DNA of 31,909 nucleotides, taken from positions 1-31,909 of IMG/VR virus record IMGVR_UViG_3300036715_001164; one strand, written 5' to 3'. The stretch is from a virus. Made by a program: the position numbers and the translations under genes. This document shows positions 1 to 30,636 of the stretch, one piece after another. Every line of letters begins with the position of its first letter. Position 1 is the stretch's first letter. A model generated the notes under the pieces. The model was not told the DNA's origin, made no database searches, and saw only the letters and a program-made list of their open reading frames with translations.

Positions 1-879
1 AACAGGTGCTACTGGATTGATGTCTAAGCTTTTACTCCAACCACGAAGACGATCATATGGAAATACTTCTTTCTTTTCTGCACATCCAGCCAAACGATCC
101 AACCAAACATCAACACTGGAGTTATTACCAATTGCCCTTATTCCGAGATCCGTATTGAATGGACTTGTCCACAAATAATTATAGTAATAATCCAATCCAC
201 GAAGGTTATTATCCTTGTATCGATTAGGCATGCTATTACTACCATAGCACATATTACCACCATCATAGGTGTTAGGAAATGGCAACAAGAAGATCCTATC
301 CTCAGAACTAATCTCATTTATGAATGTACGAGGTAATTTTGAAATAGGAGCATCAGTACAGAAGTATTTAGTACTTGTGATAATCCAGTCCTCACGTTCA
401 CGTACCATCATATGACTGATGATGATATTTGGAGCAACGACTTCCATTTTTCTATCAAAGAATAGAAGAGGTTTAATAGTAGTTGGGTAATAACAGCTCA
501 GTCGTAGTTCTTTAGCGCCTTGACTTATAAAGAACATATTTGAAGGAGGTAACATACCATTGATTTCTGCTTGACTGGTATCGTTCATACTCTTAACAAG
601 AATATCACGAAAATCTTTATAAGATATTTGTTTACCACGAACACCTTTTCCGCTGTCCATCTCAATATAATCTTTAAACATCTTTAAAGAAATATACTCA
701 GATATTATTAGATTAGTGTCATCAGATAGATGTTGTTCTAATACTTGATCAAATGAAGGAGCTGAAATTGGAGCAGAAGCAGCAGTGATAGTCGGTTCAG
801 TAACAACTTGAGAAGACTGAGATAACAAACCAGTCAAATCCGAAACTGAAGAAGCGAGTTGAAATTGTGGTATTGTCAT
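1..879 (-). CDS. E2-like ubiquitin-conjugating protein, PRTRC protein B type (C-terminus cut by window edge)
   Basis: The frame is open from the ATG at 879 to base 1 (293 codons visible) and continues outside the window. Residues 200-211 read PFPNTYDGGNMC, which matches the E2 active-site signature (HPN, then a Gly turn, then the catalytic Cys); C211 is the candidate thioester cysteine. The following residues YGSNSMP and an aromatic stretch near 229-240 ending in TSPF resemble PRTRC protein B, a family described as E2-like and normally found with a ubiquitin-like protein C, a ThiF-type E1 and a JAB peptidase. Residues 1-45 are Ser/Thr/Ala/Pro-rich and probably disordered. The start overlaps the stop of the upstream 86-residue gene by ATGA, so translation is probably coupled. 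The motif match is seen in the sequence; family membership is recognition from memory; conjugation activity is inferred. Confidence 0.72.
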   Translation of the reverse strand, partial: MTIPQFQLASSVSDLTGLLSQSSQVVTEPTITAASAPISAPSFDQVLEQHLSDDTNLIISEYISLKMFKDYIEMDSGKGVRGKQISYKDFRDILVKSMNDTSQAEINGMLPPSNMFFISQGAKELRLSCYYPTTIKPLLFFDRKMEVVAPNIIISHMMVREREDWIITSTKYFCTDAPISKLPRTFINEISSEDRIFLLPFPNTYDGGNMCYGSNSMPNRYKDNNLRGLDYYYNYLWTSPFNTDLGIRAIGNNSSVDVWLDRLAGCAEKKEVFPYDRLRGWSKSLDINPVAPV

Positions 880-1136
880 ACAAAATTCATTTCAAAATTG
901 TTAGGATCGTAATAAACTTTAGTCAATAATAATTGACCATTTATTACCCCAAGGGGAACTGAAGTGAAATTAGGAATTTCAAAATTAGTCATATCAAAAC
1001 TTAATTTACTTAATATATCAATTTCATTTTCAGTTTGGATTTCCCCAATGGAATATAATTTCTCAAAAGATTCTCTTGGTGATTGAATAATATCAGGAAT
1101 CTGATTTAGACTTGAATTCATAAGCTGGAGATTCAT
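876..1136 (-). CDS. Small protein of unknown function in the ubiquitin-like cassette
   Basis: This 86-residue protein is acidic, with no signal peptide or membrane segment. I do not recognise it. Starting at 1136 gives an AAAGG ribosome binding site about eight bases upstream; a second in-frame ATG lies five codons downstream. Its first 44 bases overlap the end of the 302-residue gene in another frame, and its stop overlaps the start of the E2-like gene (ATGA). This tight packing between the two larger cassette genes suggests it acts in the same pathway, but nothing in the residues shows how. The long overlap makes the exact start slightly uncertain. Confidence 0.6.
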   Translation of the reverse strand: MNLQLMNSSLNQIPDIIQSPRESFEKLYSIGEIQTENEIDILSKLSFDMTNFEIPNFTSVPLGVINGQLLLTKVYYDPNNFEMNFV

Positions 1137-2001
1137 AATATGCCTTTCTACTTAAAGTTGTAAAAACCTTTATGATCTTATCTAAATGCATAAAAAGTTT
1201 GACTGGAGAATATCGATAGGATTCACGAAGGTTATGCCCACGATTACCCATGATAGTTATATGGGTCCAACGACCAGTAGAATAAAATTCATCTGTTTCT
1301 GGACTTGGATTTTCACGAATAGTGTTATGATACTCTTCATCACTAGCTTTCCATGCCACAAAAAAGAAACTAAAACTTATTACATAGCAATGTCTTATTT
1401 CAGCTTTCCTTTGAGCTTCCTCTAACAAACTATACGCAGCATGAGAATCACCACTATGAAATCTCAAGCTACGTTCAGCTTTTACCCTAATCGGAATATA
1501 ATGTTTCCTACAAATGTAGTTAAGATATCGTTCATATCGTAATACCCATTTCAGTCTCTTCATTGTTGCTAAAACAGCATTACACAAAGAACTATTATTA
1601 GCAGTTTCATAACTGGTGTATTTTCGCCTGTAATCTACACCCGCACTTGCCCAATCAAATTCTCTAAAATCATAAGAAATATAAGGAGAATCGAGTGTGA
1701 TTTTAAAGTTATCCCTATTTTCTACTTGTAAGAACTCAACCTTCAAGAATGACAAATATGGAATAAGCTTTATTAAATGTTTATTAAAAATACTCTTAAG
1801 TTTACCAATTGTTTTTCGGCTCGTATTAATATCCATGCCCAAATAAAATTCGTGTTTAAGAGTTCTAGGAACTAGTCCTAAATCAATCATTCGTTTGTTG
1901 CAGTAACCAACGAGCTTCCTTTGTGCAGCGTTTTTCATGCTTTGGTAGAAGCTATGAATAATAACAATCGCACTAGAAGTTCTCATTTTTTCCATTTGCA
2001 T
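1093..2001 (-). CDS. 302-residue protein of unknown function, in the position of PRTRC protein F
   Basis: The ATG at 2001 is preceded by AGGA with seven bases of spacing, which fixes the start. The protein is rich in Lys, Arg and Tyr and predicted soluble; a hydrophobic stretch near residues 205-218 (VISFSFFFVAW) looks like a buried strand rather than a membrane anchor. I see no catalytic motif that I can name. In the plasmid PRTRC cassettes that I recall, a protein of similar length (protein F) follows the ubiquitin-like protein C, so this may be its positional equivalent; that is inference from gene order only. It lies 3' of the terminator that follows the ubiquitin-like gene, so it would be expressed by readthrough or from a weak local promoter. 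Confidence 0.65.
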   Translation of the reverse strand: MQMEKMRTSSAIVIIHSFYQSMKNAAQRKLVGYCNKRMIDLGLVPRTLKHEFYLGMDINTSRKTIGKLKSIFNKHLIKLIPYLSFLKVEFLQVENRDNFKITLDSPYISYDFREFDWASAGVDYRRKYTSYETANNSSLCNAVLATMKRLKWVLRYERYLNYICRKHYIPIRVKAERSLRFHSGDSHAAYSLLEEAQRKAEIRHCYVISFSFFFVAWKASDEEYHNTIRENPSPETDEFYSTGRWTHITIMGNRGHNLRESYRYSPVKLFMHLDKIIKVFTTLSRKAYYESPAYEFKSKSDS

Positions 2002-2021
2002 AATAGATTCCTGAGCTAACT

Positions 2022-2054
2022 AAAAAAAACAGACGAGTCATGTAACTCGTCTGT
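2022..2054 (-). terminator. Rho-independent terminator after the ubiquitin-like gene
   Basis: A perfect 10-bp inverted repeat (2029-2038 with 2045-2054, six-base loop) is followed on the minus strand by eight U residues. It lies 23 bases past the stop codon of the ubiquitin-like gene and 20 bases before the next gene of the cassette. It would make most transcripts monocistronic for the ubiquitin-like gene and reduce transcription of the genes beyond. Confidence 0.85.
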
Positions 2055-2077
2055 CAGCTTATCTAACAGAAGTTAGA

Positions 2078-2296
2078 TTAGCCCTTTGTACCAGTGCGTG
2101 GGCTAAAGGTAACAATGCGGACATTGCCCAAGCCATCACGGAACTCGTAACGTTCGGTGAATGTCATGTTAGCCAGACCTGGGATAGACGCACCGTATGC
2201 AGCTACCAGTTGTTGTGGACTCATATCACCAGGAACCTGGTAGTCAGAATCAGTAGTAGTCAGAATCAGTTCGGTACGTACGACGTTATTTGCCAT
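2078..2296 (-). CDS. Ubiquitin-like protein, PRTRC protein C type
   Basis: This is a 72-residue protein ending in RTGTKG. PRTRC protein C, the beta-grasp ubiquitin-like member of PRTRC cassettes, has the same length and characteristically ends in GTKG; an exposed C-terminal Gly is what E1/E2 systems activate. The middle has LVAAYGASIPGLANMTF, which fits the helix-then-strand portion of this family (helix, then a Y-x-P-E-L type segment). I chose the ATG at 2296 because a GAAAG motif lies just upstream and the length then fits the family; an in-frame ATG at 2320 would add eight residues. The gene is about half G+C by my count (107 of 216 bases), visibly higher than its AT-rich neighbours, as expected of a highly expressed gene. 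The E2-like protein downstream in the same direction supports the call. Confidence 0.75.
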   Translation of the reverse strand: MANNVVRTELILTTTDSDYQVPGDMSPQQLVAAYGASIPGLANMTFTERYEFRDGLGNVRIVTFSPRTGTKG

Positions 2297-2436: not shown

Positions 2437-4083
2437 ATGAGTACTTTACCAAATAAGATAATAAAACTTAGACCTTCAGACTTCGCAAAGAGTGTTTTGC
2501 AGTTAAAAGGTCAACCTTTAGATTTAGAGGAATACAAACCTTTCGAGTTAATTTATAACATCGCTCCTCCAGAGTTAGTTATTAAAGCGGGACGACAAGT
2601 AGGTAAATCTGTATCCCTAGGAGGATCGATCGTATCCAATGCTGTTATTCGCCCGTACTTTAATACCCTATATGTAGCACCACTATCAGTACAAACTTCT
2701 CGTTTTTCTTCAACATATATTGATCCATTCTTAAACTCACCTCTCGTTAAAAAACACTATCTAGATGCTACATCTAAAAAGAACGTGTTTGAGAAGTCAC
2801 TTAATAATGGATCACGCATCTTTTTATCCTATGCAGAAACTGAACAAGACGCTGATAGAATTCGTGGAGCCTCAGCTGACTTAGTATTAGTCGATGAGGT
2901 TCAAGACGTTAGTATGGACGCACTACCAATTTTGTACGAAACAATGGCAGCGTCCAACCATTCATTTAAAAGATTAACAGGCACAGCTAAAACTGAGAAT
3001 AATACTCTTGAGCATAGTTGGAAGCGAAGTAATATGCTTGAATGGGTAGTTAAATGTACTGGATGTAACAAACATAGCATACCTAATGATTTCAAATCTT
3101 GTACCAAAATAATGAGTAACCTTGAAGGTCCTCAATGTGTACATTGTGGTAAGTTATTAGATATGAAGACTGGGGTATGGATAGCTGCTAAACCTCATAT
3201 CAGAGACGTTATAGGATTTCATATACCTCAGTTTATCATACCAGCCCGTACAAGAACTAAAAAATGGAAAGAATTAAGAACTAAGGCATTTGGTGCCGAA
3301 GGTAACAAAGGTTATTCAGCTCAAAAATTAGCTAATGAGGTTTATGGACTTGCCTCAGGAGTTGGTGGCCGTATTCTTACTCTTAAAGAAGTTATGGATT
3401 GTTGTGATATTAACAGAACCAAATTTGATACTTGTTTTCCTTATGATGATCGTAAAATCTACATGACAACTATTGGAGTAGATTGGAGTACTTCTGGTTC
3501 GACAAAGAGTTATACTGTTATTACAGTACTAGGTTATGACTATAGTGGTAAATGTTACGTACTTTATTCTCAACGCATAGACGGAGTTGATATTCTAGAA
3601 CAAGTAGCACGAGTTGAACAACTATACCACCAGTTTGATTGTAGTATGATTGGTTCTGATCGGGGTGTTGGTGTGTTACAAGGCCAATTAATGAAACAAC
3701 ATATTGGTGAAGACAAAGTTGTTATGGTTAACTATGTAGCAGCTAAAGCTTACTTACGTTGGGATAAAACAGCTGGATATTATGCTGCTGATCGTACAAT
3801 GAATATTGACACTGTGGTTGTTAAAGCTAAGATGGGTCCTAAAATGTTTAGTACGCCTTGCTGGACTTTAATGGCTGAATTTTGGGATGATGCTTTGAAT
3901 CTATATGAAGAAGAGAGTCATTCCGGAAGGCGCTTGTATAGAAAAGATGAAGACTTGACAGATGATTGGTTACACTCAGTCGTGTTTGCTAATATCGCTG
4001 CTCAAGTAGTTAAAGGTGAATTTGTTAGCGTTGATGAGACTCCATCAGCTCACTCAGCGTTTGACTTGTCCCAATATTTGTAA
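2437..4083 (+). CDS. terL: Terminase large subunit (DNA packaging ATPase and nuclease)
   Basis: This 548-residue protein drives DNA into the prohead and cuts the concatemer. Walker A is AGRQVGKS (residues 51-58) and Walker B is LVLVDE with D153 and catalytic E154. A zinc ribbon with C207, C210, C234 and C237 lies between the ATPase and nuclease parts, as in the lambda gpA-like branch of large terminases. The RNase H-like nuclease has D349 (IGVDWS), D408 (IGSDRG) and a C-terminal DDWLH (509-513) as metal ligands. The start at 2437 has no clear Shine-Dalgarno sequence. No small terminase, portal or capsid gene lies next to it, so the head module is elsewhere. The tail assembly chaperone follows after 30 bases. 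Confidence 0.95.
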   Translation: MSTLPNKIIKLRPSDFAKSVLQLKGQPLDLEEYKPFELIYNIAPPELVIKAGRQVGKSVSLGGSIVSNAVIRPYFNTLYVAPLSVQTSRFSSTYIDPFLNSPLVKKHYLDATSKKNVFEKSLNNGSRIFLSYAETEQDADRIRGASADLVLVDEVQDVSMDALPILYETMAASNHSFKRLTGTAKTENNTLEHSWKRSNMLEWVVKCTGCNKHSIPNDFKSCTKIMSNLEGPQCVHCGKLLDMKTGVWIAAKPHIRDVIGFHIPQFIIPARTRTKKWKELRTKAFGAEGNKGYSAQKLANEVYGLASGVGGRILTLKEVMDCCDINRTKFDTCFPYDDRKIYMTTIGVDWSTSGSTKSYTVITVLGYDYSGKCYVLYSQRIDGVDILEQVARVEQLYHQFDCSMIGSDRGVGVLQGQLMKQHIGEDKVVMVNYVAAKAYLRWDKTAGYYAADRTMNIDTVVVKAKMGPKMFSTPCWTLMAEFWDDALNLYEEESHSGRRLYRKDEDLTDDWLHSVVFANIAAQVVKGEFVSVDETPSAHSAFDLSQYL

Positions 4084-4669: not shown

Positions 4670-4991
4670 ATCCCTACAGGATAGAATCATTCGTCAACAC
4701 ATGACGAGCGAATCTCAGAAAGAAACAAAAAAAGTTCAGTTCCTTGCGTTGTTAGCTATCAATTCAGTTAGTACAGCTGATGTAAGTAGTACTACAGAGT
4801 GGGAAAAGAAAGTTAAAAACTTATGGACTAGTTATCTTGGTTTAGAATATGGTGTTGAAATACCTGAAGATAACGATAAAGAAATAGAGATGATGGAATA
4901 TTATCAGAGCACTGTTAAAAACCTGAAAGCTCAATTAAGTATGAAAGCTGGGCAATTGACAGTAACAGGACTTGATAAACTCAAAGCGTAA
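4602..4991 (+). CDS. Tail assembly chaperone, C-terminal extension made by -1 frameshift
   Basis: This frame opens at 4584, has no Shine-Dalgarno sequence before its first ATG (4629), and lies -1 relative to the preceding gene. After slippage at 4596-4602 translation continues from the codon at 4602 to the stop at 4989-4991, adding 129 residues and giving a fusion of 292 residues. This mirrors lambda gpG/gpGT, where the extended form recruits the tube protein to the tape measure. The extension is helical and charged. An independent start at 4629 is possible but less likely given the strong frameshift signal. Confidence 0.75.
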   Translation, partial: LKRPASVQRMKLFLTGIKLPKLGSLQDRIIRQHMTSESQKETKKVQFLALLAINSVSTADVSSTTEWEKKVKNLWTSYLGLEYGVEIPEDNDKEIEMMEYYQSTVKNLKAQLSMKAGQLTVTGLDKLKA

Positions 4992-4996
4992 CAAAG

Positions 4997-5026
4997 AAAA
5001 GGCTAGAATTTGTTCTAGCCTTTTTT
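4997..5026 (+). terminator. Rho-independent terminator after the tail chaperone
   Basis: The stem is GGCTAGAA with TTCTAGCC (5001-5008 and 5013-5020), loop TTTG, flanked by AAAA and TTTTTT which extend it. It lies just after the chaperone stop and closes the terL-chaperone transcription unit, so the following gene needs its own promoter. Confidence 0.85.
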
Positions 5027-5073
5027 ACATACGCCTAAAATACCTCTAGCAAACTTAACTATGAGCACAACCA

Positions 5074-8000
5074 ATGTTTGGTAATCCCGATATAAGCGCA
5101 ACACCAGTCTCCGATATTTACGCTTCACAAGCTAACGTATACGGTAACTCTTTCCAAAATCCGATGAATCCTGCCAACCAAAATTCTGGTTGGAATATCG
5201 ATCCATCTTTGCTTAGCCCAAGCTATACTGCACCGTATCGTCCTCAATATCAAGGCCCAAACGGGGCTAGTAGATATGGTCATACAGGTTTCTTTGGAGG
5301 TCTAAGGCAATTAAGCCCAACGTCACAAGATGTGATGTGGGGTAATCCTATTATGCAACAACAGCAAGCTATCGAAGACGTTAGTTCTCGTCCATTCGAT
5401 GCTTTAGCCTGGACCACTCAACGTATAGCTTTACCTATTGCTGGATTTACTGCTGCCCGTCATATTACTAAGGGGTTAGGTCTTGGTTGGGGTATGGGTA
5501 GTCGATTTGGTGCTGGTCTTGGTAGTGGACTAGCCTCAGGATTTGGAGCAACTGCTCCTAGTTTTGGTGGATTTGCAGGCACTGCCAAAGGTTTAGGAAA
5601 AGCTTACCAAGCAGGAGGTATGTGGGGAGCTGCAGCTTCTGCATATACTGACGTTGGATTCAAAGGAGCTATGAATTTAGCTGCTCGTGGAGTTATGGGA
5701 ACAGCCTTTGGTGCGGTGGCTTCACTAGCGGTTCCTTTAGTTATTGGCCAAGGATTAACGTATGGTGCTGAAAAAGGATTAATTGATCCTTATATAAACA
5801 CTCGTGTTTCAAGTAAAAATCTTCGTGAAAATTTCGCTGGTATTACTTTTGGAGATGCTGAAGGTAATGCAGTGACCGGTGGTGGATTGAGTAATAGCGA
5901 AAGCTATAAAATGGCTCAACAGATAACCCACGCTGGTATTTCTGATATGACGTTCTCAAATACTCAGTATCGTCAAGGTGCTGACATGATGGGCCGTGCT
6001 GGACTCATGGACAATATTGGTTCTAAAGACATTGTTAAACGTGTCAAAGACAGTATGGACCAAGTCAAACTTATTATGGCAATTGCTAATATGCCAGAAA
6101 TGAAAGATGCTATTGAGCAATTAGCTAAATTACAGCAAGCAGGTGCTTCTATTGCTGGAGGAACTTCATCTACTGCGTCTTCTACTATGCGTATTCTTGG
6201 TGGTCACGCAGCTATGGCAGGTACTAGTGTTCAGAGAATGATGAACACCGTAGGAGCTCAAGGACAGTATTTATACTCAGCCAATGGTATGACCCCTTAC
6301 CTTGGACAAATAGCAGCCGCTGGGGCCTATTCAAGCCTTGCAGCAGGCCAACGCATGGGCTTGTTATCTACTGAGCAGATTGCTCGTATGGGTGGACTAG
6401 AAGGTGCTACTCAAGCCTCATTAACTGGGCAAATAAATATGTCCCAAACACTGTTTAACAAAATGGCATTACACAACTCTTTCCTAGGTGGAGGTAAGGG
6501 TGGAAGCGCATATGGTAATCAAGAAGATACCATGAGTATTACTAGTAAATTCAGTGAGAATATGGTTGCAGATCCCCTAGGAACATATGGGGGCATGATG
6601 CTGCATAGCCGTCAAATGGCTGGTAAACAAATAGAAGAACGTGGTTCGTTAGCTGTGGATGACCAAGTCTATGCACTGGCTAAAAATCATCCTCAAGTCT
6701 TTGATAAGAATGGGAAAATTTCTTTGGAACGTGCAGTGCCCTTCATGCTGCAAGCCAATATGAGTGAGGATCAAATTCAAGCATATGCTGCTCAACGTCT
6801 CACAGAAACGGATCCTAAATTACAAAGTGCTAAACAAAAAGCATTGGATCGTAACCGTGAGGAACAACTTCGTGAAACGATTTCCCAACAAGGGACATAC
6901 GGTGGCCCTATCGGAAGTTCAATTTACGCTTTAAGAAAAGGTGGCCGTGCTGTAGTTAATGGGGTGTCTGGTACAGTAGTAGATCCAGTGACATCAGTTA
7001 TTGGTACCTTTGGTGATGCTATTCAAAGAACTACTGACTGGGCTGTGTTTGGTACGACTTTAGAAAAGAATAAAAATGAAAGTATTAATGATTACTTAAC
7101 AGACCCTTCTTCTAAAATGCTTGAAAACAAAGATCTTAAAGTCTTTGATATGAAGAAATTTAACGAAGGATTAGGAACTTTTAACAAAACAGTTAGAGGC
7201 GGAGATGTAATCAAAGTTAATAAAACTTCTCCTCATGCCGAGTTAGCTGAAAAGCTTAATGACCTGGCAATTAGACAAAATAACCAAGGCGCTAAAAACT
7301 ATTTCCAAGCTGAAACTAAAGAAGAAAGAAGTGCTGCCCTTAAAAAGGTTATGGCATCTGGGGATCTTGGAGATGTTTTAACTTCGCAATACTCTGGATT
7401 CGAATCAAGAGCAAACTTAGATGACTTTTTGGAATCTCGTCAAAAATCTGTGGATACAACAGATAGAGGCATGCGTATTATTGGTCGATTTGGAGGATCA
7501 AGTGGCCCTGTCAAAGAAGCTAAAGTATCTGCTTCTGAGAAATTACAGAAGTTAAAAAATGATTTGAGCCTTGCGTCAGGTATGACAGGAGAAATTCCTG
7601 AAACAATGCAGGCTGCTGGTTTGGCGTACAAGATATGGGGTAAAACTGAATCTGGGGACATCAATCCTAATATGAGTGACACTGATTTAGCTAAAGATTC
7701 TGATGTTGCTGAATACGCTAAGTTAACTGGAAGTAAAGTTAACGGAGATTTGATTACTAAAGCTAGAGCTGCTGGAGTACAAAACTATAAAGCGGGACTA
7801 GAAGGAGTGACTACCACTGCTGCTGGTATGAATCGCAAAGATTACAAAACTAATGATGATTTCTTAAAAGCAGTTAACGAAAAGAACGGTAGAATATATG
7901 GTATTGCTAAGAAAAATGCGGATAGCATTGATTCTAAAGAAGCTTATAATGAGTCACAAATAGACGTTAACATTGCTAGACAAAAACAACATATTTCCCA

Positions 8001-14139: not shown

Positions 14140-14351
14140 TGGCAACAACATTCGATTATAGTAAAATACCAGTTAACTCCGGATTACCAAGAGATGTAAA
14201 CGTTCCGTCAACAATCATCAATAGTGATTTGTTATCAGTGACTTCTTTGGCTTCGGATTGCTTTATTAAACAAAAATTCAGTAGAAAATTACAAGCCTAT
14301 ATGATTGGTTATGTGAATTCTATATATTCAGACTACTCGGTATACAAATAA
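14139..14351 (+). CDS. Small baseplate-cassette protein of unknown function
   Basis: This 70-residue protein contains a Pro/Asn-rich N-terminal half and an amphipathic C-terminal half. I recognise no domain. It shares a TAATG junction with both the hub-like gene before it and the sigma-like gene after it, so it is certainly part of the same translationally coupled block. Confidence 0.7.
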   Translation: MATTFDYSKIPVNSGLPRDVNVPSTIINSDLLSVTSLASDCFIKQKFSRKLQAYMIGYVNSIYSDYSVYK

Positions 14352-15100
14352 TGAGCGACGAAATTCAACTAGCAGAATCCCCAGAATCCCTGACCCCACA
14401 GGAGTATTTTCAAGGCCGTAGACAGACCGACCAGGAGTTATATAATCAGTGGAAGGCAACGGGTAGTAAAAAGCATCTAGGGGCTCTGGTGGAGCATTTA
14501 GGTGGCTTAATTTTTTCCGAAGTAAGACGAGCTTCAGGTAGTTTACCTACTTCAGCACTAACTTCCGAGGCTCGTAAATGGGCTATCAAAGGTATTCAGA
14601 CGTATGATCCCTCTAAGGGAACAGCGTTGTCTACTCATGTTGTTAACTATCTGCCTAAAACTCGCCGTATGAACTATAAGTTTCAAAACTTAGTTCGTTT
14701 ACCAGAGAACTTACAGTTACGTTTTCATGACTATAACATGGCATTAACTATGCTAACCGAAGAACTAAATCGTGAACCAACTGACGAAGAACTGGCCCAT
14801 AAGTTAGGGTGGAGTAAGCCTCAAACTGTAAAGTTTAAAAATAGTCTATACGCTGACTTGATCGAATCTAGTTCAGCTAAAGCTTCAGAGTATACTCACT
14901 TTAACGAAAACGCTTTGTTAATGGAACATCTAATGACTCAACTGGACCCACAAGAAAAGTTTATCTTGGAAAACTCCAAAGTTATTAGTTCTACGGATTT
15001 GGCTAAAAAACTCAATGTTAATTTAAACCGTCTTAACTACCTTAAAGCCAAATTGGCTGAAAAGATCAAGGATATTAAACAAGATTCAGGAATGTACTAA
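14351..15100 (+). CDS. Sigma-70-like RNA polymerase sigma factor
   Basis: This 249-residue protein matches sigma-70 in order: a region 2-like segment (about 42-110) with AIKGIQTYDPSKGTALSTHV followed by LPKTRRMNY; a region 3 helix-turn (133-165) with LTEELNREPTDEELAHKLGW, the hallmark of sigma region 3; and a region 4 helix-turn-helix (about 197-242) with LDPQEKFILE and SSTDLAKKLNV. Sigma factors direct host RNA polymerase to promoters, here presumably late phage promoters. It starts on the stop of the previous gene (TAATG) and its stop overlaps the next start, so it is locked inside the baseplate operon, an odd place for a regulator. It may be made late, or be carried in the virion. The family call is firm; the role is inferred. 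Confidence 0.88.
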   Translation: MSDEIQLAESPESLTPQEYFQGRRQTDQELYNQWKATGSKKHLGALVEHLGGLIFSEVRRASGSLPTSALTSEARKWAIKGIQTYDPSKGTALSTHVVNYLPKTRRMNYKFQNLVRLPENLQLRFHDYNMALTMLTEELNREPTDEELAHKLGWSKPQTVKFKNSLYADLIESSSAKASEYTHFNENALLMEHLMTQLDPQEKFILENSKVISSTDLAKKLNVNLNRLNYLKAKLAEKIKDIKQDSGMY

Positions 15101-24614: not shown

Positions 24615-25191
24615 TACCCCTCAAGTAGAACCCTACTGTGTTTGGGGGAAAGCATTTACTCCTGAAGAATGTGATTCCATTATCGAAATTTGTGAAACTT
24701 TAGAGTTTCAAAAAGGACGTGTAGGGGGAGATCCCAATGGCGGAGTTATTGATGATGTTAGAAACTCTGATATCACATGGCTTCATCCCACTCATGATAA
24801 CGATTGGATTCATAAACGATTGAGTTCTCTTATGTCTCGTATAAACTATGATAAATTTCAAGTAGACCTTGATTGCTTCGATGGTTTTCAATACTCTAAA
24901 TACGGTCCTGATCAACATTATGGGTGGCATACGGATACCATCATAGCTCCCCCTAATGCCGAGCAACACAGAAAACTTTCGATGTCTTTAATGCTTACCG
25001 ATCCAGCTGATTACGAAGGTGGTGAATTACTATTAGCGCCGAATGGTGACAATCAAAAAGCCACTTCTATTAAACGTGATAAAGGGGATTTAGTAGTATT
25101 CTATTCGCATACTCCACACAAAGTAGTCCCAGTGACTAAAGGTGAACGAGTAACTTTAGTAAGCTGGGCATTAGGACCAAAACTTCGATGA
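24592..25191 (+). CDS. 2-oxoglutarate/Fe(II)-dependent oxygenase, prolyl-hydroxylase type
   Basis: This 199-residue enzyme has the double-stranded beta-helix signature: HxD at H113 and D115 (HYGWHTDT), the distal iron ligand H176 (TPHKVVPV), and R186 (KGER) to bind 2-oxoglutarate. YEGGELLL and GDLVVFYS are typical of the PKHD/prolyl 4-hydroxylase-like branch. Such enzymes hydroxylate protein side chains, often proline, using oxygen and 2-oxoglutarate. The preceding gene makes a proline-rich fibre protein, a plausible substrate. Its start codon is inside a hairpin, and its stop overlaps the next gene by ATGA. Family assignment is firm; the substrate is inferred. Confidence 0.9.
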   Translation: MNFPIPQFTPQVEPYCVWGKAFTPEECDSIIEICETLEFQKGRVGGDPNGGVIDDVRNSDITWLHPTHDNDWIHKRLSSLMSRINYDKFQVDLDCFDGFQYSKYGPDQHYGWHTDTIIAPPNAEQHRKLSMSLMLTDPADYEGGELLLAPNGDNQKATSIKRDKGDLVVFYSHTPHKVVPVTKGERVTLVSWALGPKLR

Positions 25192-25919
25192 ATCTTATTT
25201 CTATTTTTAAAACGCCTATAATTGAGTTCCTTTGCCGTGAAGAAGACTATGGTATTATTGCTATGCCTTACCCTGCTGGTGGTAAGTCTATACCTCAATG
25301 GTACAAAAATATACCAACCAATACTACTTCAAAAAATAGGGATCAATTTGGTAACGTGGCAATGACAGCTAAGAAATGCATGCCTATGATTGACGCTATG
25401 AATTTAGGTTTTATTATGCCTCTATATGGGGATACTAATATTCGTGTTGATAAAACTGGTAAACTTATCGAAACCAATAAACACCCACAAGGTGGAATCA
25501 TTGAGAAACATGGACTGGAACAACTAGGTGGAGAAACTAGTCCGACATTCCCAGGGCCAGCTATTAAATTTATTAATCGTTGGATTATTAAAACTGCTCC
25601 AGGATACTCAACTCTGTTTACTCCTCCAATGAATGTGATGGATCCTAGATTTACTTGTTTAAGTGCGTTGGTTGATACAGATACTTACCAGAAGGAAGTT
25701 AATTTTCCGGCAGTTTGGCACATGAAAGATTGTGATGAAACGCTATTAGCAGGAACTCCTTTGGTTGTAGCTATCCCTATTAAACGTTCAACTGTTCCTA
25801 AGACTGCACCTGTAAGAGTGTGGACCACTAAGGAAATGGCATACGCTGACAAAATTCATCGTAGCCAACAAAATCGTAATCATGTTTATACTAACGAACT
25901 AAGAGACAAACGTAAATGA
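25188..25919 (+). CDS. Paralogous phage protein 1 with PGYST and GTPL motifs
   Basis: This 243-residue protein and the next one share the same landmarks: a short N-terminal hydrophobic-aromatic segment, IPxWYK or a variant (SIPQWYKNI here), a WxIxxxPGYST segment, a D-T/H-D turn, and AGTPLVVAIPIKR near the end. Gene pairs of this kind are known to me from phages as proteins of unknown function near fibre genes and 2-oxoglutarate oxygenases; the pattern of strands suggests a jelly-roll or cupin-like fold, but no HxH metal site is evident. It is coupled to the oxygenase and its paralogue by ATGA overlaps. Confidence 0.6.
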   Translation: MNLISIFKTPIIEFLCREEDYGIIAMPYPAGGKSIPQWYKNIPTNTTSKNRDQFGNVAMTAKKCMPMIDAMNLGFIMPLYGDTNIRVDKTGKLIETNKHPQGGIIEKHGLEQLGGETSPTFPGPAIKFINRWIIKTAPGYSTLFTPPMNVMDPRFTCLSALVDTDTYQKEVNFPAVWHMKDCDETLLAGTPLVVAIPIKRSTVPKTAPVRVWTTKEMAYADKIHRSQQNRNHVYTNELRDKRK

Positions 25920-26632
25920 TACAATTCTTTAAGAATTTATTTACCTCAAAACCTACAGTAGAATTTAAATGTATAGAGGGAGCTTTTAATATTGGCTCTC
26001 CTATTCGGGAAGCTCGTAAAGTTATTCCTTATTGGATGAAACCTCAGATAGTTAAAAAAGATGTTAAGTTTGCCAAATGCCCAGGTATGTTTGACCAAGC
26101 CCAAGCTGGGTATATTATAAGTGCTCACGTCGATATTCATATCAAAGCTAATAGGCAAGCAGTTCTAGTGATGGTAGACAATATACCACCTGGATTTGAA
26201 TCTTCTAAAATGGACTACGATTTAGTAGCAGGTATGGCTCCGATAAAAGATAACGTTCAGAAAAATGTACGTAAGGTACCTTTGCCTTGGGCTATTTTTT
26301 GTAAGCCCGGTTACTCTACTACGGTTATGGCCGCTACTATGCATTCTCCTTTTTTAGATAAACTATATATCTACCCTGGAATCGTAGATCATGATTCGTT
26401 TCATACTATTAATTTGATTTTTTCCGTAACTGAAGAATGTGAATTTACTATATATGCTGGTACTCCCTTGCTACAAGTTATCCCTTTTAAAAGAGAAACC
26501 ATCACGGCGGAATACGGAAAAGGCTCCGTTGAAGATAAAGACAAACACCGTTTTACCTTTATCTCCAGAATGCCCGGCCTGTATCGTAAAATTTTCCAAC
26601 ATCGTAAACACTATAAACTAAAGAGCGTATGA
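25916..26632 (+). CDS. Paralogous phage protein 2 with PGYST and GTPL motifs
   Basis: This 238-residue protein is a diverged duplicate of the preceding gene. It keeps VIPYWMK, PWAIFCKPGYST, GIVDHDSFH and AGTPLLQVIPFKRE in the same order. The internal TAKKCMPMIDA segment of its partner is replaced by a less similar region (KCPGMFDQAQAGY). It is followed by the fibre assembly chaperone through another ATGA overlap, so the pair lies between the oxygenase and the chaperone and probably acts on the tail fibre or its modification. Confidence 0.6.
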   Translation: MIQFFKNLFTSKPTVEFKCIEGAFNIGSPIREARKVIPYWMKPQIVKKDVKFAKCPGMFDQAQAGYIISAHVDIHIKANRQAVLVMVDNIPPGFESSKMDYDLVAGMAPIKDNVQKNVRKVPLPWAIFCKPGYSTTVMAATMHSPFLDKLYIYPGIVDHDSFHTINLIFSVTEECEFTIYAGTPLLQVIPFKRETITAEYGKGSVEDKDKHRFTFISRMPGLYRKIFQHRKHYKLKSV

Positions 26633-27054
26633 ACTATTATCTATTCGATTCAAAAAATAGGTCTTTCACATTTCATGAATACTTACCAGATACTTTTGGC
26701 AATATAACGGGATTCGCTGATTGTAATTATGAAACAGTAAAAGATCTAACTTGGGCAGGTTATCCACATTTAGGATTTCTTAGTGAAGAAGACTCTATGA
26801 AAGAAGGTATTCCCCTAATTCTCATAGAAGCTAATAGACTAAAAACCATAGACGGACAATGGGCCAAAATTAGAGGTATAAGAGACGCTTATATTCAAGA
26901 TGTTCGTTGGAGAATTGAAAGGTATGATGATGAAAGAAAACTTGGTCTTCACACAACCGAGGATGTAACTCCATTACTACAATATATACAAGAACTACGA
27001 AATATTACAACACAATCAGATCCTTTCAAAATTGTTTGGCCGCACCAAAAATGA
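26629..27054 (+). CDS. Tail fibre assembly chaperone-like protein
   Basis: The 141-residue protein ends in a segment typical of Caudovirales tail fibre assembly proteins: helix IRDAYIQDVRWRIERY, then PLLQYIQELRNITTQ and DPFKIVWP, where the LRxIxxQ and final WP are characteristic. These chaperones help trimerise long fibres and are not usually found in the virion. The N-terminus (MNYYLFDSKNRSFTF) is not one I recognise. It is the last gene of the block that starts with the oxygenase; 44 bases without a gene follow before the holin. Confidence 0.7.
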   Translation: MNYYLFDSKNRSFTFHEYLPDTFGNITGFADCNYETVKDLTWAGYPHLGFLSEEDSMKEGIPLILIEANRLKTIDGQWAKIRGIRDAYIQDVRWRIERYDDERKLGLHTTEDVTPLLQYIQELRNITTQSDPFKIVWPHQK

Positions 27055-27074
27055 GAATTTTTGAGTTAACATAA

Positions 27075-27097
27075 ACCTATAAATGAAAGACATAGGT
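27075..27097 (+). promoter_or_regulatory. Small hairpin covering the holin ribosome binding site
   Basis: ACCTAT (27075-27080) can pair with ATAGGT (27092-27097), an 11-base loop between. The AGG that serves as ribosome binding site for the ATG at 27099 is inside the stem. The stem is only 6 bp and could be weak. Confidence 0.35.
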
Positions 27098-27098
27098 A

Positions 27099-27506
27099 AT
27101 GGCCGAACCAACAACTGCTTCTATAGCAACTTATTTCTCTATCACCAAACTTTGGAGTATCACCTCCGGAGTTTGTGGCTCAATCATACCGATTCTAGCC
27201 TTAGCAGATAGATCGAAAATAACCCTAACCACAGGGTTCTTCATGGCATTAACCGGCTCAAGCTTTTCTATTTTCGTAGGACCTTACTTAGCACAACGTT
27301 TAGACATAACTTCAATCGAGGGTATAGTTGCACTCTCTTGGGCTATGGGAGCAACCGGTGTGTACATTATAAGAGCTATATTTAAATGGTTAGACAAACG
27401 AGCTCTTAATGCCATCGATCTCGCAGTTAGCAAAGCCTTAGGTGTTTATAACCCTCCTTCACAGGATGATACTCCACCAGAGACTAAAGATGGAACAAAT
27501 AACTAA
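27099..27506 (+). CDS. Probable holin with three membrane segments
   Basis: This 135-residue protein shows three hydrophobic stretches: SGVCGSIIPILALA (about 23-37), FFMALTGSSFSIFVGPYLA (about 47-65) and IVALSWAMGATGVYII (about 76-91), followed by a charged C-terminal tail. Small size, membrane segments and position at the head of the lysis block fit a holin, which permeabilises the inner membrane at lysis. The 3' end overlaps the next gene by 17 bases. The alternative is another small lysis-associated membrane protein. Confidence 0.6.
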   Translation: MAEPTTASIATYFSITKLWSITSGVCGSIIPILALADRSKITLTTGFFMALTGSSFSIFVGPYLAQRLDITSIEGIVALSWAMGATGVYIIRAIFKWLDKRALNAIDLAVSKALGVYNPPSQDDTPPETKDGTNN

Positions 27507-27846
27507 TTTATTTAATCAACTATATGACTTGGATTTACTGTGGACTTTAGGATTTTATATATTAATAAGTTCACTTACTTTCTCCAGCTCGTTAAAATTA
27601 TGTGGAATTAAAAACATATTTGCCATTGTTACTAAGTACGCACTAGCATTAGTCACGGTAAATATAGTTACCAAAATTTTTATAATTCTTTTGTACCCTA
27701 ACTTCATGCTAGGACCTATTTCCTTAGAAGTTATTATGTATGTGACCATATTTCTATTAGGTGTAAGCATTATAGTCAGACATTGTTCAACTCACATTAC
27801 GACTCGCATAACTAAAAAAATAGAAACTCTAACTAGAAGTTTTTGA
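27490..27846 (+). CDS. Second small membrane protein of the lysis block (possible holin or antiholin)
   Basis: From the ATG at 27490 it is a 118-residue protein. An earlier in-frame ATG (27442) would overlap the preceding gene by 65 bases, so I prefer the later start. Hydrophobic segments are about 19-37 (TLGFYILISSLTFSSSL), 46-72 (FAIVTKYALALVTVNIVTK and on) and 82-98 (VIMYVTIFLLGVSIIV), followed by a basic tail. It is probably a second holin-like or holin-modulating protein. Identity is inferred from location and topology. Confidence 0.55.
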   Translation: MEQITNLFNQLYDLDLLWTLGFYILISSLTFSSSLKLCGIKNIFAIVTKYALALVTVNIVTKIFIILLYPNFMLGPISLEVIMYVTIFLLGVSIIVRHCSTHITTRITKKIETLTRSF

Positions 27847-27864
27847 AATAAACCGAATTAGTTT

Positions 27865-27899
27865 AAAATCCTAGTATAACTACTTATTAGGATTTTTTT
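27865..27899 (+). promoter_or_regulatory. Hairpin with U-tract overlapping the endolysin ribosome binding site
   Basis: A perfect 9-bp stem (27865-27873 with 27888-27896, 14-base loop) is followed by a U-tract that runs to the endolysin ATG. The AGGA ribosome binding site (27889-27892) is inside the 3' arm. It could act as a leaky terminator, or as an element that hides the ribosome binding site, or both. TAGTATAAC in the loop also resembles a -10 box. Confidence 0.55.
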
Positions 27900-28436
27900 A
27901 TGTCTATCTCAACTCTGCAATTATCAAAGATTGCTCCAAATCTCAAAGAACCAAAACTAACGTTATTTTGTAACGCTCTGAACGCTGCTATGGATTCCTA
28001 TTCCATTAGCACAGATATCGAACAAGCTGGATTTATTGCTCAGGTTATGCATGAAAGCGGAGAATGCCGTTATGTCAAAGAATTAGCATCTGGCTCAGCT
28101 TACGAAGGACGTAAAGACCTTGGGAATACTCAAGTTGGTGATGGCGTTAAATTTAAAGGCCGTGGACTTATTCAAATCACAGGCCGTAATAATTACAAAT
28201 CGTTAAGCGATGCCTTTGGGGTGGATTTTATTGCTCATCCAGAGAAATTAGAAGAACCTGATTACGCTGCTAAAAGTGCAGCCTGGTTCTGGTCAACTCA
28301 TAAATTGTCAGCTATTATGGATGCTAATACTGAAGATGCTTTTAAGATTGTTACACATCGCATTAATGGAGGATACAACGGATTAGATGATCGTTTGAAA
28401 TATTGGGCTAGAGCCAAAGAACAGTTAGGTGTCTAA
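27900..28436 (+). CDS. GH19-family endolysin (chitinase-like muramidase)
   Basis: This 178-residue single-domain enzyme cuts the glycan strands of peptidoglycan at lysis. The catalytic Glu is in MHESGE (E52), the next diagnostic block is FKGRGLIQITGRNNY (85-99), and the third is RINGGYNGLDDR (154-165). It lacks a signal peptide and a cell-wall-binding domain, as usual in Gram-negative phage endolysins that depend on a holin. Its stop overlaps the next gene start by one base. Confidence 0.92.
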   Translation: MSISTLQLSKIAPNLKEPKLTLFCNALNAAMDSYSISTDIEQAGFIAQVMHESGECRYVKELASGSAYEGRKDLGNTQVGDGVKFKGRGLIQITGRNNYKSLSDAFGVDFIAHPEKLEEPDYAAKSAAWFWSTHKLSAIMDANTEDAFKIVTHRINGGYNGLDDRLKYWARAKEQLGV

Positions 28437-28861
28437 TGAATCCTATATTGTTAGCTTTTTGGAATGCCGAAAAGTTACCGATCATACTAGTATTCACAAT
28501 ATTTGTTCTGACAGTATTACTTTATCGTGCTCAAAAGAAAAGTGAAATCTTTGATATTAAAGATTTAGTAACAGAAAAATCAGGGAAAATTTCTCTGAGT
28601 AAATTTGGTCAGTTAGTATCTTTAATTATTAGTTCTTGGGGCTTTTTATATTTAACTTTAAACAATCATTTAACAGAAATGTATTTCACTGTGTACATGA
28701 CTTGTTGGGCAGGATTTACTGCAGTTAATAAAGCTTTAGATAATTATCAAAGGACACCAGTTGACAATGATACTCCTCCAGAGGATAATGTACCAGATGA
28801 TCCACCTACAACAGATACAGATGATACACCGGATGTTTCGGTAAAAAAAGGAAAGAAATAA
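28436..28861 (+). CDS. Membrane protein of the lysis block with acidic tail
   Basis: The 141-residue protein has hydrophobic segments at about 15-31 (LPIILVFTIFVLTVLLY), 59-78 (LVSLIISSWGFLYLTL) and 84-97, separated by a charged loop (EIFDIKDLVTEKSGK), then a C-terminal tail of Asp, Pro and Thr with a short basic end. It sits between the endolysin and the i-spanin and could be another holin-type or regulatory membrane protein. I do not recognise the family with certainty. Confidence 0.6.
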   Translation: MNPILLAFWNAEKLPIILVFTIFVLTVLLYRAQKKSEIFDIKDLVTEKSGKISLSKFGQLVSLIISSWGFLYLTLNNHLTEMYFTVYMTCWAGFTAVNKALDNYQRTPVDNDTPPEDNVPDDPPTTDTDDTPDVSVKKGKK

Positions 28862-29313
28862 TGTTTGGTTTAAATCCATTATCCGCAATTCAAGGATATA
28901 TATACTTAGCTGTGGCATTAGCTTTTGCTGCGCTATTAGTGTATTGCAAAGTACTACATCGTGAAAATGTTACCCTCATTTCTGACAAAGCTAAATTAGA
29001 ACAGTCAGTTACTGGGTTTATAAAAACGGTTGAACGATATGATGCTGCTACTAAAGAACTAAAAGCTAAAGAAGATGAAAGAACCGAAGCTGCTAAGGCA
29101 GCAGTTGAGGAAGCTAAAAAAAGCTCCCATATAGATTATGTTGCTAGTCAAACTTTGCTGTCAAGAAAACCTAAACCTCCTATCGTTACTCCTGGTAATG
29201 CTAATCAGTATGGCGGTTTAACTACAGAGTTGAAGATGAGCGATTATCTAGCAGCACAAGACTTGGCTAACGAAGAAATTGATAGACGTCAAGCAGAATT
29301 GGCTAAAAAATGA
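28861..29313 (+). CDS. Inner membrane spanin (i-spanin)
   Basis: The 150-residue protein has one N-terminal membrane segment (about 13-30, IYLAVALAFAALLVYCKV) and then a long, charged, coiled-coil-like periplasmic region (about 36-95). It ends in a Pro-rich linker and a second helix. This is the Rz-like layout. It partners with the lipoprotein made from the next gene to fuse inner and outer membranes after the peptidoglycan is cut. The overlap with that gene is ATGA. Confidence 0.75.
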   Translation: MFGLNPLSAIQGYIYLAVALAFAALLVYCKVLHRENVTLISDKAKLEQSVTGFIKTVERYDAATKELKAKEDERTEAAKAAVEEAKKSSHIDYVASQTLLSRKPKPPIVTPGNANQYGGLTTELKMSDYLAAQDLANEEIDRRQAELAKK

Positions 29314-29579
29314 AAACAACATTCTTATTATTAATAGTAGTTTTATTCCTTACTGGTTGTCCTGCAACTATACCAACAGCTCCTGATGTAGTGGAGGTGC
29401 CTGTGGCAGTTAGGTGCAAGCCAACTGTGCAAATCACTAAAATTCAAGATTATGCTTACGATAGGGCCGTAAAAGAAATGAGCCTATATGAGAAATTTCA
29501 ATTGGCAATGTCTGAACTTAGTACTGTACGTGGTCAAAACAAAGAACTAGATGCTGCTCTGAAAGAATGCACTAAATGA
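29310..29579 (+). CDS. Outer membrane spanin lipoprotein (o-spanin)
   Basis: The 89-residue protein has a signal peptide ending in a lipobox LTGC with acylated C17. The mature protein is short, with a Pro-rich N-terminal part (PATIPTAPDVVEVPV) followed by a helix. This is the Rz1-like partner of the preceding i-spanin. Here the two genes are only overlapped by four bases, not nested. The lipoprotein shows that the host has an outer membrane. Confidence 0.78.
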   Translation: MKTTFLLLIVVLFLTGCPATIPTAPDVVEVPVAVRCKPTVQITKIQDYAYDRAVKEMSLYEKFQLAMSELSTVRGQNKELDAALKECTK

Positions 29580-30037
29580 AATCCTTAAATGTTATTCATA
29601 TTGAAGTTGATCAGGAAGCTGATGAATCCATTCGTTTTCACTACACCAATACTAGTACTGGACTACCTGTTGATTTAACTGGTTTTAGAGCAGAGTTACA
29701 AGTACGTTGTGGATACGAAGGTAACACTCAAGGAACCATTCCTGTTCTGATTTACACAAGTGAAACAAATGGGGGAATTGTATTAGGTGGAGTGTACGGA
29801 ACTATCGATTTATATATTTCGTATGAAGACACTAAAGATATAGTTTGGAATACTGGTAAATACACTTTGTATTTAATTACTCCTGCATCTGCTCGCATTC
29901 CATTTGCTAAAGGATTTTTCACTGTTAACCCTTCTAGCCTAATGTTGCTTGACACTGGTTTACCTAATATAGTAACAGGAACTCCTGCTCATCCTAATAA
30001 TGAAGGTAAAGGCGGATTGGATTCAAGTAATGGCTAA
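29576..30037 (+). CDS. Beta-rich phage protein with BppU-like N-terminal fold
   Basis: The 153-residue protein has a pattern common to small phage structural proteins: an acidic strand (DQEADESIRFHY), PVDLTGFRAELQVR, a GTIDLYIS strand and TGKYTLYLIT. This is the beta-sandwich seen in baseplate-periphery and fibre-linker proteins (BppU N-terminal-like). The last 20 residues are Gly/Asn-rich. The stop overlaps the PAAR gene start by eight bases, suggesting joint work at the baseplate. The fold assignment is moderate. Confidence 0.55.
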   Translation: MKSLNVIHIEVDQEADESIRFHYTNTSTGLPVDLTGFRAELQVRCGYEGNTQGTIPVLIYTSETNGGIVLGGVYGTIDLYISYEDTKDIVWNTGKYTLYLITPASARIPFAKGFFTVNPSSLMLLDTGLPNIVTGTPAHPNNEGKGGLDSSNG

Positions 30038-30332
30038 AGTTGTAACCACTAATATACACGTGAATGGAACTTGTACTGCCCATGCTAATCCTACGGCTTT
30101 TACTGGAACGTTTACAGTAGGATCTCCAACAGTAACTTCAAGTGGATATCCGGTGGTTAGAATTAATGATACTGGAACTACTAGTTGCGGTCATCATATC
30201 AAAGCAACGACTGGTAGCACGATAGTCAAAGCTGATGGCATTGGTGTTCATAGAGTAGGGGATACTGGCATTGTAATTGAGGGTGGAACCTACACAGTTA
30301 CTACCGGAGATCCAGTCACTGATGCTCTTTAA
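30030..30332 (+). CDS. PAAR-domain spike tip protein
   Basis: From the ATG at 30030 the protein is 100 residues. An upstream in-frame ATG at 30000 lies inside the preceding gene and would add ten charged residues, so the later start is preferred. GSPTVTSSGYPVVRINDTG, then CGHHIK and GVHRVGDTG are typical PAAR features. PAAR proteins cap the central spike of contractile injection devices and hold a metal ion through His and Cys; here C53, H55 and H56 are candidates, with H74 further on. It is encoded far from the hub gene. Confidence 0.85.
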   Translation: MAKVVTTNIHVNGTCTAHANPTAFTGTFTVGSPTVTSSGYPVVRINDTGTTSCGHHIKATTGSTIVKADGIGVHRVGDTGIVIEGGTYTVTTGDPVTDAL

Positions 30333-30338
30333 GCTAAA

Positions 30339-30360
30339 AAAGACGGCCTAGACCGTCTTT
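30339..30360. terminator. Bidirectional terminator between convergent blocks
   Basis: AAAGACGG (30339-30346) and CCGTCTTT (30353-30360) form an 8-bp stem with a six-base loop, flanked by A residues on the left and T-rich sequence on the right. It lies between the PAAR gene (plus) and a minus-strand gene, so it can end transcripts from both sides. Confidence 0.85.
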
Positions 30361-30363
30361 CTT

Positions 30364-30636
30364 TTATTTACGCTTTATAGATTCTCTAACATCTTTAATA
30401 CCTTCAGCCAGTTTATTAGCAGAGGTAATCAAAGCATTAATAGGGTCTCCATTTTCTTTACTGGTATTGAGATGATTCAACTGTAGCTCTGCCATAGCTT
30501 TAGATGAGGCTTTGAACATTAAAATACCTTGTAAATCATCATGTCTAAACTCAACTATGGTAAGTTTATCTCCCACCTCTTGTTGAGTTATACACGCAGT
30601 TAATTCCAATGTTACTTTTTTTGTTATTAGTGTCAT
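30364..30636 (-). CDS. Small protein of unknown function
   Basis: The 90-residue protein starts at 30636 with GGGAAAG seven to twelve bases upstream. The first half is strand-rich (KVTLELTACITQQ, then DKLTIVEFRH) and the second half helical and charged. I do not recognise it. It is the last gene of the minus-strand block and is closed by the bidirectional terminator. Confidence 0.7.
   Translation of the reverse strand: MTLITKKVTLELTACITQQEVGDKLTIVEFRHDDLQGILMFKASSKAMAELQLNHLNTSKENGDPINALITSANKLAEGIKDVRESIKRK

Follow-up and report, generated by a model that had tools for sequence, protein, structure and literature searches.

A PRTRC-like ubiquitin-type cassette beside the terminase gene as apparent core equipment of a phage group

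Bacteria use ubiquitin-like tagging against phages, and kits of this type have been found on bacterial plasmids and in antiphage defence, not as standard viral equipment. In the DNA studied here, IMG/VR virus record IMGVR_UViG_3300036715_001164 (31,909 nucleotides (nt); "the window" is this whole record), the picture appears reversed, with phages running the cascade themselves. An earlier note, made from the letters of the window alone, had read its left end as a ubiquitin-like protein (Ubl) and an E2-like enzyme of the PRTRC type, divergent from terL, the gene for the large terminase subunit, and had proposed that they tag virion or host proteins or counter host defences. For some 20 years, comparative genomics has recorded PRTRC-type Ubl systems; in the literature covered, which was open papers, we found neither an account of the PRTRC mechanism nor a description of a phage PRTRC. 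What, then, does this locus encode, is it a fixture of the phages that carry it, and on what might it act? We show herein that it almost certainly belongs to a Ubl-E2-JAB-E1 system, judging from sequence. As a constant, vertically inherited phage set, present also in Salmonella phage Arash, which is cultured on a standard Salmonella strain, it offers a tractable place to learn the cascade's role.

The 72-residue protein ending in GTKG that the earlier note singled out corresponds to an open reading frame (ORF) on the minus strand (Table 1), and its R-T-G-T-K-G terminus carries no C-terminal extension. Its own sequence matched no Pfam or NCBIfam model, and tblastn against phages gave no match, so that remote methods were needed; it was identified through homologues, profile comparison and a predicted structure. 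All 22 Ubls of the group end in G-T/N-K-G, and the Ubl of the nearest relative, L009 (relatives are cited by locus number), is 67% identical to that of the window. By hhalign, the Ubl family matched the two-repeat PRTRC-type Ubl of a Cytobacillus plasmid (95.6%, E = 1.2e-8), and profile comparison with canonical PRTRC C indicated remote homology (82.5%, E = 9.8e-6). An AlphaFold2 model built with 22 sequences in the alignment (predicted local distance difference test (pLDDT) score, 90.8) has strands at residues 5-12, 17-22, 45-53 and 57-65, a helix at 27-34 and a loose tail; this order of two strands, a helix and two strands is that of the beta-grasp fold, on which the earlier note's reading depended. 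When the model was compared with the PDB by Foldseek, matches were mostly to beta-grasp proteins (the UBX domain of p47, protein L, Caldiarchaeum ubiquitin and a bacterial Ubl-deubiquitinase complex), none of them at E<=0.001.

Several relatives encode tandem poly-Ubls, with five repeats in L042, three in Vibrio phage D69, and two each in L012, L026 and L028; the L042 protein scored 24.6 bits against Prok_Ub (PF14454; cut-off 25). The L009 Ubl has 17 residues beyond its GTKG. Such repeats and such a tail would call for a protease, for example JAB, to expose the glycine. No second Ubl, such as one fused to a virion protein, was found elsewhere in 12 records. The only lysine of the window's Ubl is the penultimate residue, K71 (probability 0.006 given the composition of its neighbours), and the Ubls of Arash, L010, L017 and L029 likewise have none outside the tail. 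Because the body of these Ubls contains no lysine, ordinary lysine-linked chains on it are impossible, and the lysine count suggests that single tagging would be more likely than chains. In Arash, the Ubl frame (L003:107-304; 66 residues, ending in RRTGTKG) is absent from the GenBank annotation, where gp251 (L003:102-320) overlaps it. Since the counterparts of gp251 in relatives hold stops and the Ubl frame is conserved, gp251 represents a wrong frame over the Ubl.

The partner protein had been recognized in the earlier note by an E2-type PN...GG...C motif with C211 as active site. That motif, LPFPNTYDGGNMCYG (L-P200-F-P-N203-T-Y205-D-G-G-N-M-C211-Y-G), is more than a chance resemblance, as the protein scored 30.7 bits (E = 3.1e-7) against Prok-E2_D (PF14460), over the cut-off of 25 bits. 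Residues P200, N203, Y205, C211, G213, N215, N242 and D244 are invariant in 16 of 16 sequences, and P-F-P-N-x-Y...M-C-x-G-x-N is kept in the group, with the active-site cysteine placed after PN. Profile comparison by hhalign linked the family to PRTRC_B of an Aeromonas plasmid (93.7%, E = 1.8e-7). As a single sequence, the window's E2 found no close relatives in the viral_contigs database, and an alignment used as query did; tblastn against plasmids gave no match, and sequence searches of the PDB with the Ubl, E2 and JAB profiles returned nothing useful. The E2 model (pLDDT 80.4) consists of a helix, a beta-meander, the cysteine loop and two helices, an order that fits UBC, after 40 disordered residues. 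Against a viral model library, it matched a 294-residue uncharacterised protein of Acinetobacter phage ME3 (E = 2e-4). ME3_136, likewise of 294 residues, directly precedes the ME3 JAB gene, and the fold match thus fits the E2 position.

The Ubl and E2 that the earlier note paired are both present, and between them stand two genes that it did not list, termed here X and S. Homologues of X, found with an iterated hidden Markov model (HMM), occur in Arash, D69, L009, L020-L023, L026, L028 and L042; X evolves fast, matched nothing in Pfam, NCBIfam or PADLOC, and gave no match to phages by tblastn. Homologues of S occupy the same place in Arash, D69, L018-L023, L026 and L028, the match of the window's own S being weak (E = 7e-8 after iteration).

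Whether this is a complete cascade, and whether it is cargo, was judged from relatives. A tblastn search with the E2 led to Arash and to Vibrio phages D69, D181 and D148. Arash has the order Ubl, X, S, E2, JAB (PF14464, E = 1e-7) and E1 (PF00899, E = 8e-15); its terL is 50% identical to that of the window, that of D69 41%, and those of the next phages about 25%. A scan of IMG/VR by terL alignment, blind to the cassette, gave 21 loci from records that may all be fragments. More than 6 kb of upstream DNA was available in 13 of them (L009, L010, L012, L013, L015, L016, L017, L020-L023, L026 and L028; L012 and L013 look like one virus), and in 13 of 13 Ubl, E2, JAB and E1 stand on the strand opposite to terL in the same order. 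The shorter loci L011, L014, L018 and L019 hold every cassette gene that fits, and in L008, L024, L025 and L027 the upstream DNA is too short for a verdict. L009 (terL 69% and E2 52% identical to those of the window) has all four core genes. D69 and L042 carry the complete cassette, not directly beside terL. The order across the group is Ubl-(X-S)-E2-JAB-E1, mostly beside terL and flanked by virion genes; the earlier note had called for JAB and E1 genes to the left of E2, and both follow E2 in every relative long enough to tell.

The JAB motif H-S-H-x7-S-x2-D and the E1 motifs GCGGTG (G-x-G-G-T-G), D-x-D-x-V-E-x-K-N-L-x-R and S-C-A-D are conserved across the group (a pattern search missed G-x-G-G-T-G in the E1 of L020). 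Distances correlate with those of terL (Mantel rho: X, 0.88; JAB, 0.80; E1, 0.71; Ubl, 0.67; E2, 0.61; at most 1 of 2000 permutations was as high), and ratios of nonsynonymous to synonymous substitution (dN/dS) of 0.09-0.43 over five pairs, mostly 0.1-0.25 and 0.43 in one Ubl pair, indicate purifying selection. In a tree of E1s, the group's 16 sequences fall into a single clade (support 100/100), apart from plasmid and chromosomal E1s; long branches elsewhere in the tree make its deeper order unsafe. Because the cassette is complete in all examinable relatives, diverges in step with terL, and retains its motifs at low dN/dS, we regard it as core equipment of this group of large phages, not cargo. 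As a separate observation, the D69 E1 (L002:12168-13181) is annotated from an internal ATG and thereby loses the GCGGTG nucleotide-binding motif; its open frame extends upstream without an ATG, GTG or TTG start.

How closely, then, does the cassette correspond to PRTRC (A, B, C, F and ThiF; TIGR03735-TIGR03738 and TIGR03742), which resides on plasmids and integrative elements? Both have a Ubl ending in G-x-K-G, a family D E2, JAB and ThiF in the order C-..-B-A-ThiF, and homology is measurable for all four. Scores, however, stay below the NCBIfam cut-offs (PRTRC_B, 131.45; PRTRC_C, 45.95; PRTRC_ThiF, 144.75 bits). The window's E2, which passed the PF14460 cut-off, gave 21.4 bits in the search with the PRTRC_B model that the earlier note had suggested, and PRTRC_C matched neither the window's Ubl nor that of Arash. 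PRTRC_A matched in 12 of 12 phage records, never over its cut-off (0 of 12; the JABs of Arash, E = 1.8e-21, and D69, about 1e-20, are both below it), and the Arash E1 matched ThiF/PRTRC_ThiF at E = 7e-15, likewise below (ThiF in relatives, 55 bits vs 144.75). The ParB domain PF02195 is absent from the 12 phage records, some of them fragments, and present in 10 of 14 control genomes. The phage JAB and E1 are longer, and the phage genes are a core set beside terL rather than plasmid cargo. X was considered as PRTRC F, with which it shares its position, and rejected, as there is no detectable similarity. Because the homologues score below the cut-offs, ParB was not found and X is unlike PRTRC F, the cassette is PRTRC-like and not PRTRC proper; the earlier note's matches to B and C stand as homology, which extends to A and ThiF.

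Nor is the group alone among phages, although the earlier note knew such proteins mainly from plasmids and integrative elements: database notes in ME3 and Bacillus phage KLEB27-3 already name PRTRC A. KLEB27-3 (OM634661), like ME3 a large phage of another lineage, has E2-like, JAB and E1 genes and a poly-Ubl of four near-identical repeats, which reaches 61 bits against PRTRC_C only by summing the four; its E1 groups with that of a Cytobacillus plasmid (99/96). Near-identical repeats in phage poly-Ubl genes bear on the origin of polyubiquitin-like genes. ME3 (KU935715) has E2-like, JAB and E1 genes too. Burkholderia phage BgVeeders33 (OK665841, L131; 32.9 kb, with Mu-like tail genes) carries PRTRC C-?-F-B-A-ThiF at 26515-30438, mostly annotated as hypothetical; its F, B, A and ThiF exceed the cut-offs of NCBIfam, and its Ubl that of Pfam Prok_Ub. 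The gene order is that of the window's group, but the genes lie in an accessory region far from terL, in one small phage, and this canonical PRTRC is a separate acquisition. The three phages carry independent versions. A further candidate, MT835919 ("Bacteriophage sp."), was set aside as doubtful, its E1 grouping with Ruminococcaceae chromosomal loci. In the ME3 JAB gene itself (L129:3736-6846), the HSH motif (...VVVMDIH*) is interrupted by DNA that contains, besides a group I intron (RF00028, 81 bits, 4862-5198), a tRNA-like sequence and several small ORFs, of which one may encode a homing endonuclease. Many Clostridia (L053-L126, mostly Oscillospiraceae chromosomes) show another arrangement of the system, with adjacent JAB-E1 and a family-D-like E2 a few kb downstream, not upstream.

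Among described operons, type 6d of Iyer, Burroughs and Aravind (2006), which comprises a small Ubl, an alpha-helical protein, an E2, a JAB with an N-terminal domain and an E1 (PMC1779556), has the same kinds of gene, with a stand-alone Ubl ending in glycine and JAB and E1 as separate proteins. Its Ubl, E2, JAB and E1 are all present in relatives of the window, and X might correspond to its alpha-helical protein. It differs in that a conserved downstream histidine is reported for this E2 type (PMC1779556) and not seen in the phage E2s, in the poly-Ubls of several phage members, and in the status of the phage genes as a core set. The tail assembly proteins I (with a Ubl domain) and K (JAB plus NlpC) of phages lambda and T1 also place Ubl and JAB in a virion-assembly cluster (PMC1779556), but without E1 or E2, and with the Ubl fused to another domain and related to ThiS/MoaD. 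Bil and type II CBASS (Cap2/Cap3) share E1, E2 and JAB-type enzymes and ligation through a C-terminal glycine; they differ as host-encoded defence, and PADLOC defence models matched none of Ubl, E2, X, S and JAB, the Arash E1 alone giving a weak match to E1-E2 models (4e-9) that reflects the shared E1 fold. In Cap2, E1 and E2 are fused.

The chemistry of E1, E2 and JAB is established for ubiquitin-type systems, and by analogy the steps can be proposed. E1, with its ThiF fold, would adenylate the C-terminal GTKG of the Ubl, which would then pass to C211 of E2; E2, perhaps guided by X and S, would join it to amino groups of targets (a lysine or the N-terminus); and JAB, through its JAMM motif, would trim precursors or poly-Ubls and take the tag off again. 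The chances seem even that this is a working cascade of conjugation and deconjugation whose substrates are produced during infection and are probably virion proteins. That the Ubl is conjugated to protein, rather than carrying sulfur, we consider likely. The targets may be phage proteins made late in infection, most plausibly of the virion, a reading that we hold with some reserve; it is favoured because the cassette is always present, mostly beside terL, near virion genes and co-inherited with terL. More tentative still is the proposal that the cascade, with its polyubiquitin-like tag genes, is essential core machinery that modifies and later unmodifies virion or packaging proteins during assembly. 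If true, ubiquitin-type tagging would be a step of viral morphogenesis.

Evidence bearing on this reading comes from a proteomic study of Arash particles (PMC10585845). Its Table 2 lists unique peptides for Gp246 (5), Gp247 (3), Gp248 (2), Gp249 (5) and Gp251 (2), and GenBank labels gp246 (E1) and gp248 (E2) "structural protein". E1, JAB and E2 are listed whichever numbering is followed, and are thus made in infection. Several points weigh against an action on the virion, or against the cascade itself. Neither a substrate nor a conjugate has been observed. The positions of JAB and E1 fall beyond the left contig end of the window, and both were seen in relatives. No conserved histidine lies downstream of C211 in 16 E2 sequences, in which N242 and D244 are invariant, and a fold search of the PDB with the E2 model gave no UBC match, perhaps owing to its disordered first 40 residues. 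The numbering of the proteomics table agrees poorly with the GenBank labels in this region; by our own reckoning, a table one number high in this stretch fits better (E1, 3; JAB, 2; E2, 5; X, 2). Moreover, primase, helicases and ribonucleotide reductase figure among the 116 listed proteins, and the authors reckon with possible carry-over (PMC10585845); because replication enzymes are on the list, the case that the cascade enzymes belong to the particle is weak. The Arash Ubl was probably absent from the searched database, its frame being unannotated. The study used trypsin, iodoacetamide with carbamidomethyl-Cys as a fixed modification, and a database of annotated genes (PMC10585845), and could not easily detect conjugates: trypsin would cleave GTK|G and leave a single glycine (+57.0215 Da) on the target lysine, a remnant isobaric with carbamidomethyl (by arithmetic, C2H3NO in both).

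A phage might instead use the cascade for host take-over or counter-defence, tagging or de-tagging host proteins, for example against type II CBASS or Bil, the latter of which tags a tail fibre. Ubl-type cascades do act against phages, since conjugation of bacterial cGAS enhances anti-phage defence (PMC10097602); the weak PADLOC match of the Arash E1 points the same way, and virion-associated enzymes could be delivered early. Counter-defence genes are, however, usually patchy accessories, and this cassette is found in every examinable relative, mostly in a fixed place, and tracks terL. A Ubl, E1 and E2 of its own go beyond what a de-tagging mimic needs, and none of Ubl, E2, JAB and X corresponds to a defence model. 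We therefore consider this role unlikely, and of the functions that the earlier note proposed, action on virion proteins fits the evidence better.

Because E1 is homologous to ThiF and has matches to ThiF/MoeB models as well, the cassette could perform sulfur-carrier chemistry, in which the Ubl, like ThiS or MoaD, would receive a thiocarboxylate from E1 for a metabolite, nucleotide or tRNA, and a Ubl with JAB and an E1-like protein does occur in sulfur-assimilation clusters (PMC1779556). Such chemistry is improbable here, since the cassette never lacks an E2 with an invariant cysteine (16 of 16), an enzyme for which sulfur carriage has no use, tandem poly-Ubls of 2-5 copies fit a modifier made in bulk, and neither a rhodanese domain nor a sulfurtransferase was noticed next to these genes. 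Equally remote is a role in protein turnover or quality control, with the tag directing phage or host proteins to a host protease instead of altering assembly. Its appeal lies in analogy with Pup and ubiquitin and in poly-Ubl genes that resemble the polyubiquitin gene layout, but neither a dedicated protease nor an AAA unfoldase was noticed among the cassette genes or beside them, the lysine-poor Ubl argues against lysine-linked chains, and to our knowledge the known hosts, Salmonella and Vibrio, have no proteasome.

Table 1. Genes and intergenic region at the left end of the window
Feature	Position (nt)	Strand	Basis and remarks
Ubl, 72 residues	2081-2296 coding; stop 2078-2080	minus	ORF; starts MANNVV, ends FSPRTGTKG
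X, 302 residues	1093-2001	minus	ORF; homologues by iterated HMM
S, 86 residues	876-1136	minus	ORF; overlaps the ends of X and E2
E2-like (Prok-E2_D), at least 293 residues	1-879	minus	PF14460; frame runs past the left contig end
Intergenic region between divergent Ubl and terL	2297-2436	none	contains TTATACCA-N8-TAAAATATTGAAT at 2374-2402
terL, large terminase subunit; neighbour outside the cascade	2437-4083	plus	phrog_675, E = 9e-56

The four minus-strand genes keep the same order in related phages, and their divergence from terL is as the earlier note had described it. The window is collinear, gene by gene, with the first 18 kb of Arash. Three IMG/VR relatives each have a single exact copy per genome of an element TTATACCA-N4-AT-N3-AAAATATTGAA, located between Ubl and terL, and Arash has it at the same place (180774-180801); in several relatives it is found about once per genome at this position. 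It is a candidate for a packaging site or a terL promoter.

Elsewhere in the window, positions 14351-15100 encode a phage sigma factor (phrog_351) resembling Arash gp10, and among the 15 phage records searched, 10 carry a gene for a large beta-type subunit of RNA polymerase (in Arash, compare gp206 and gp216). Near the tail fibre genes, two adjoining genes at 25188-26632 belong to one uncharacterised family (phrog_7084, E = 1.6e-50 and 3.9e-26) and probably represent a tandem duplication.

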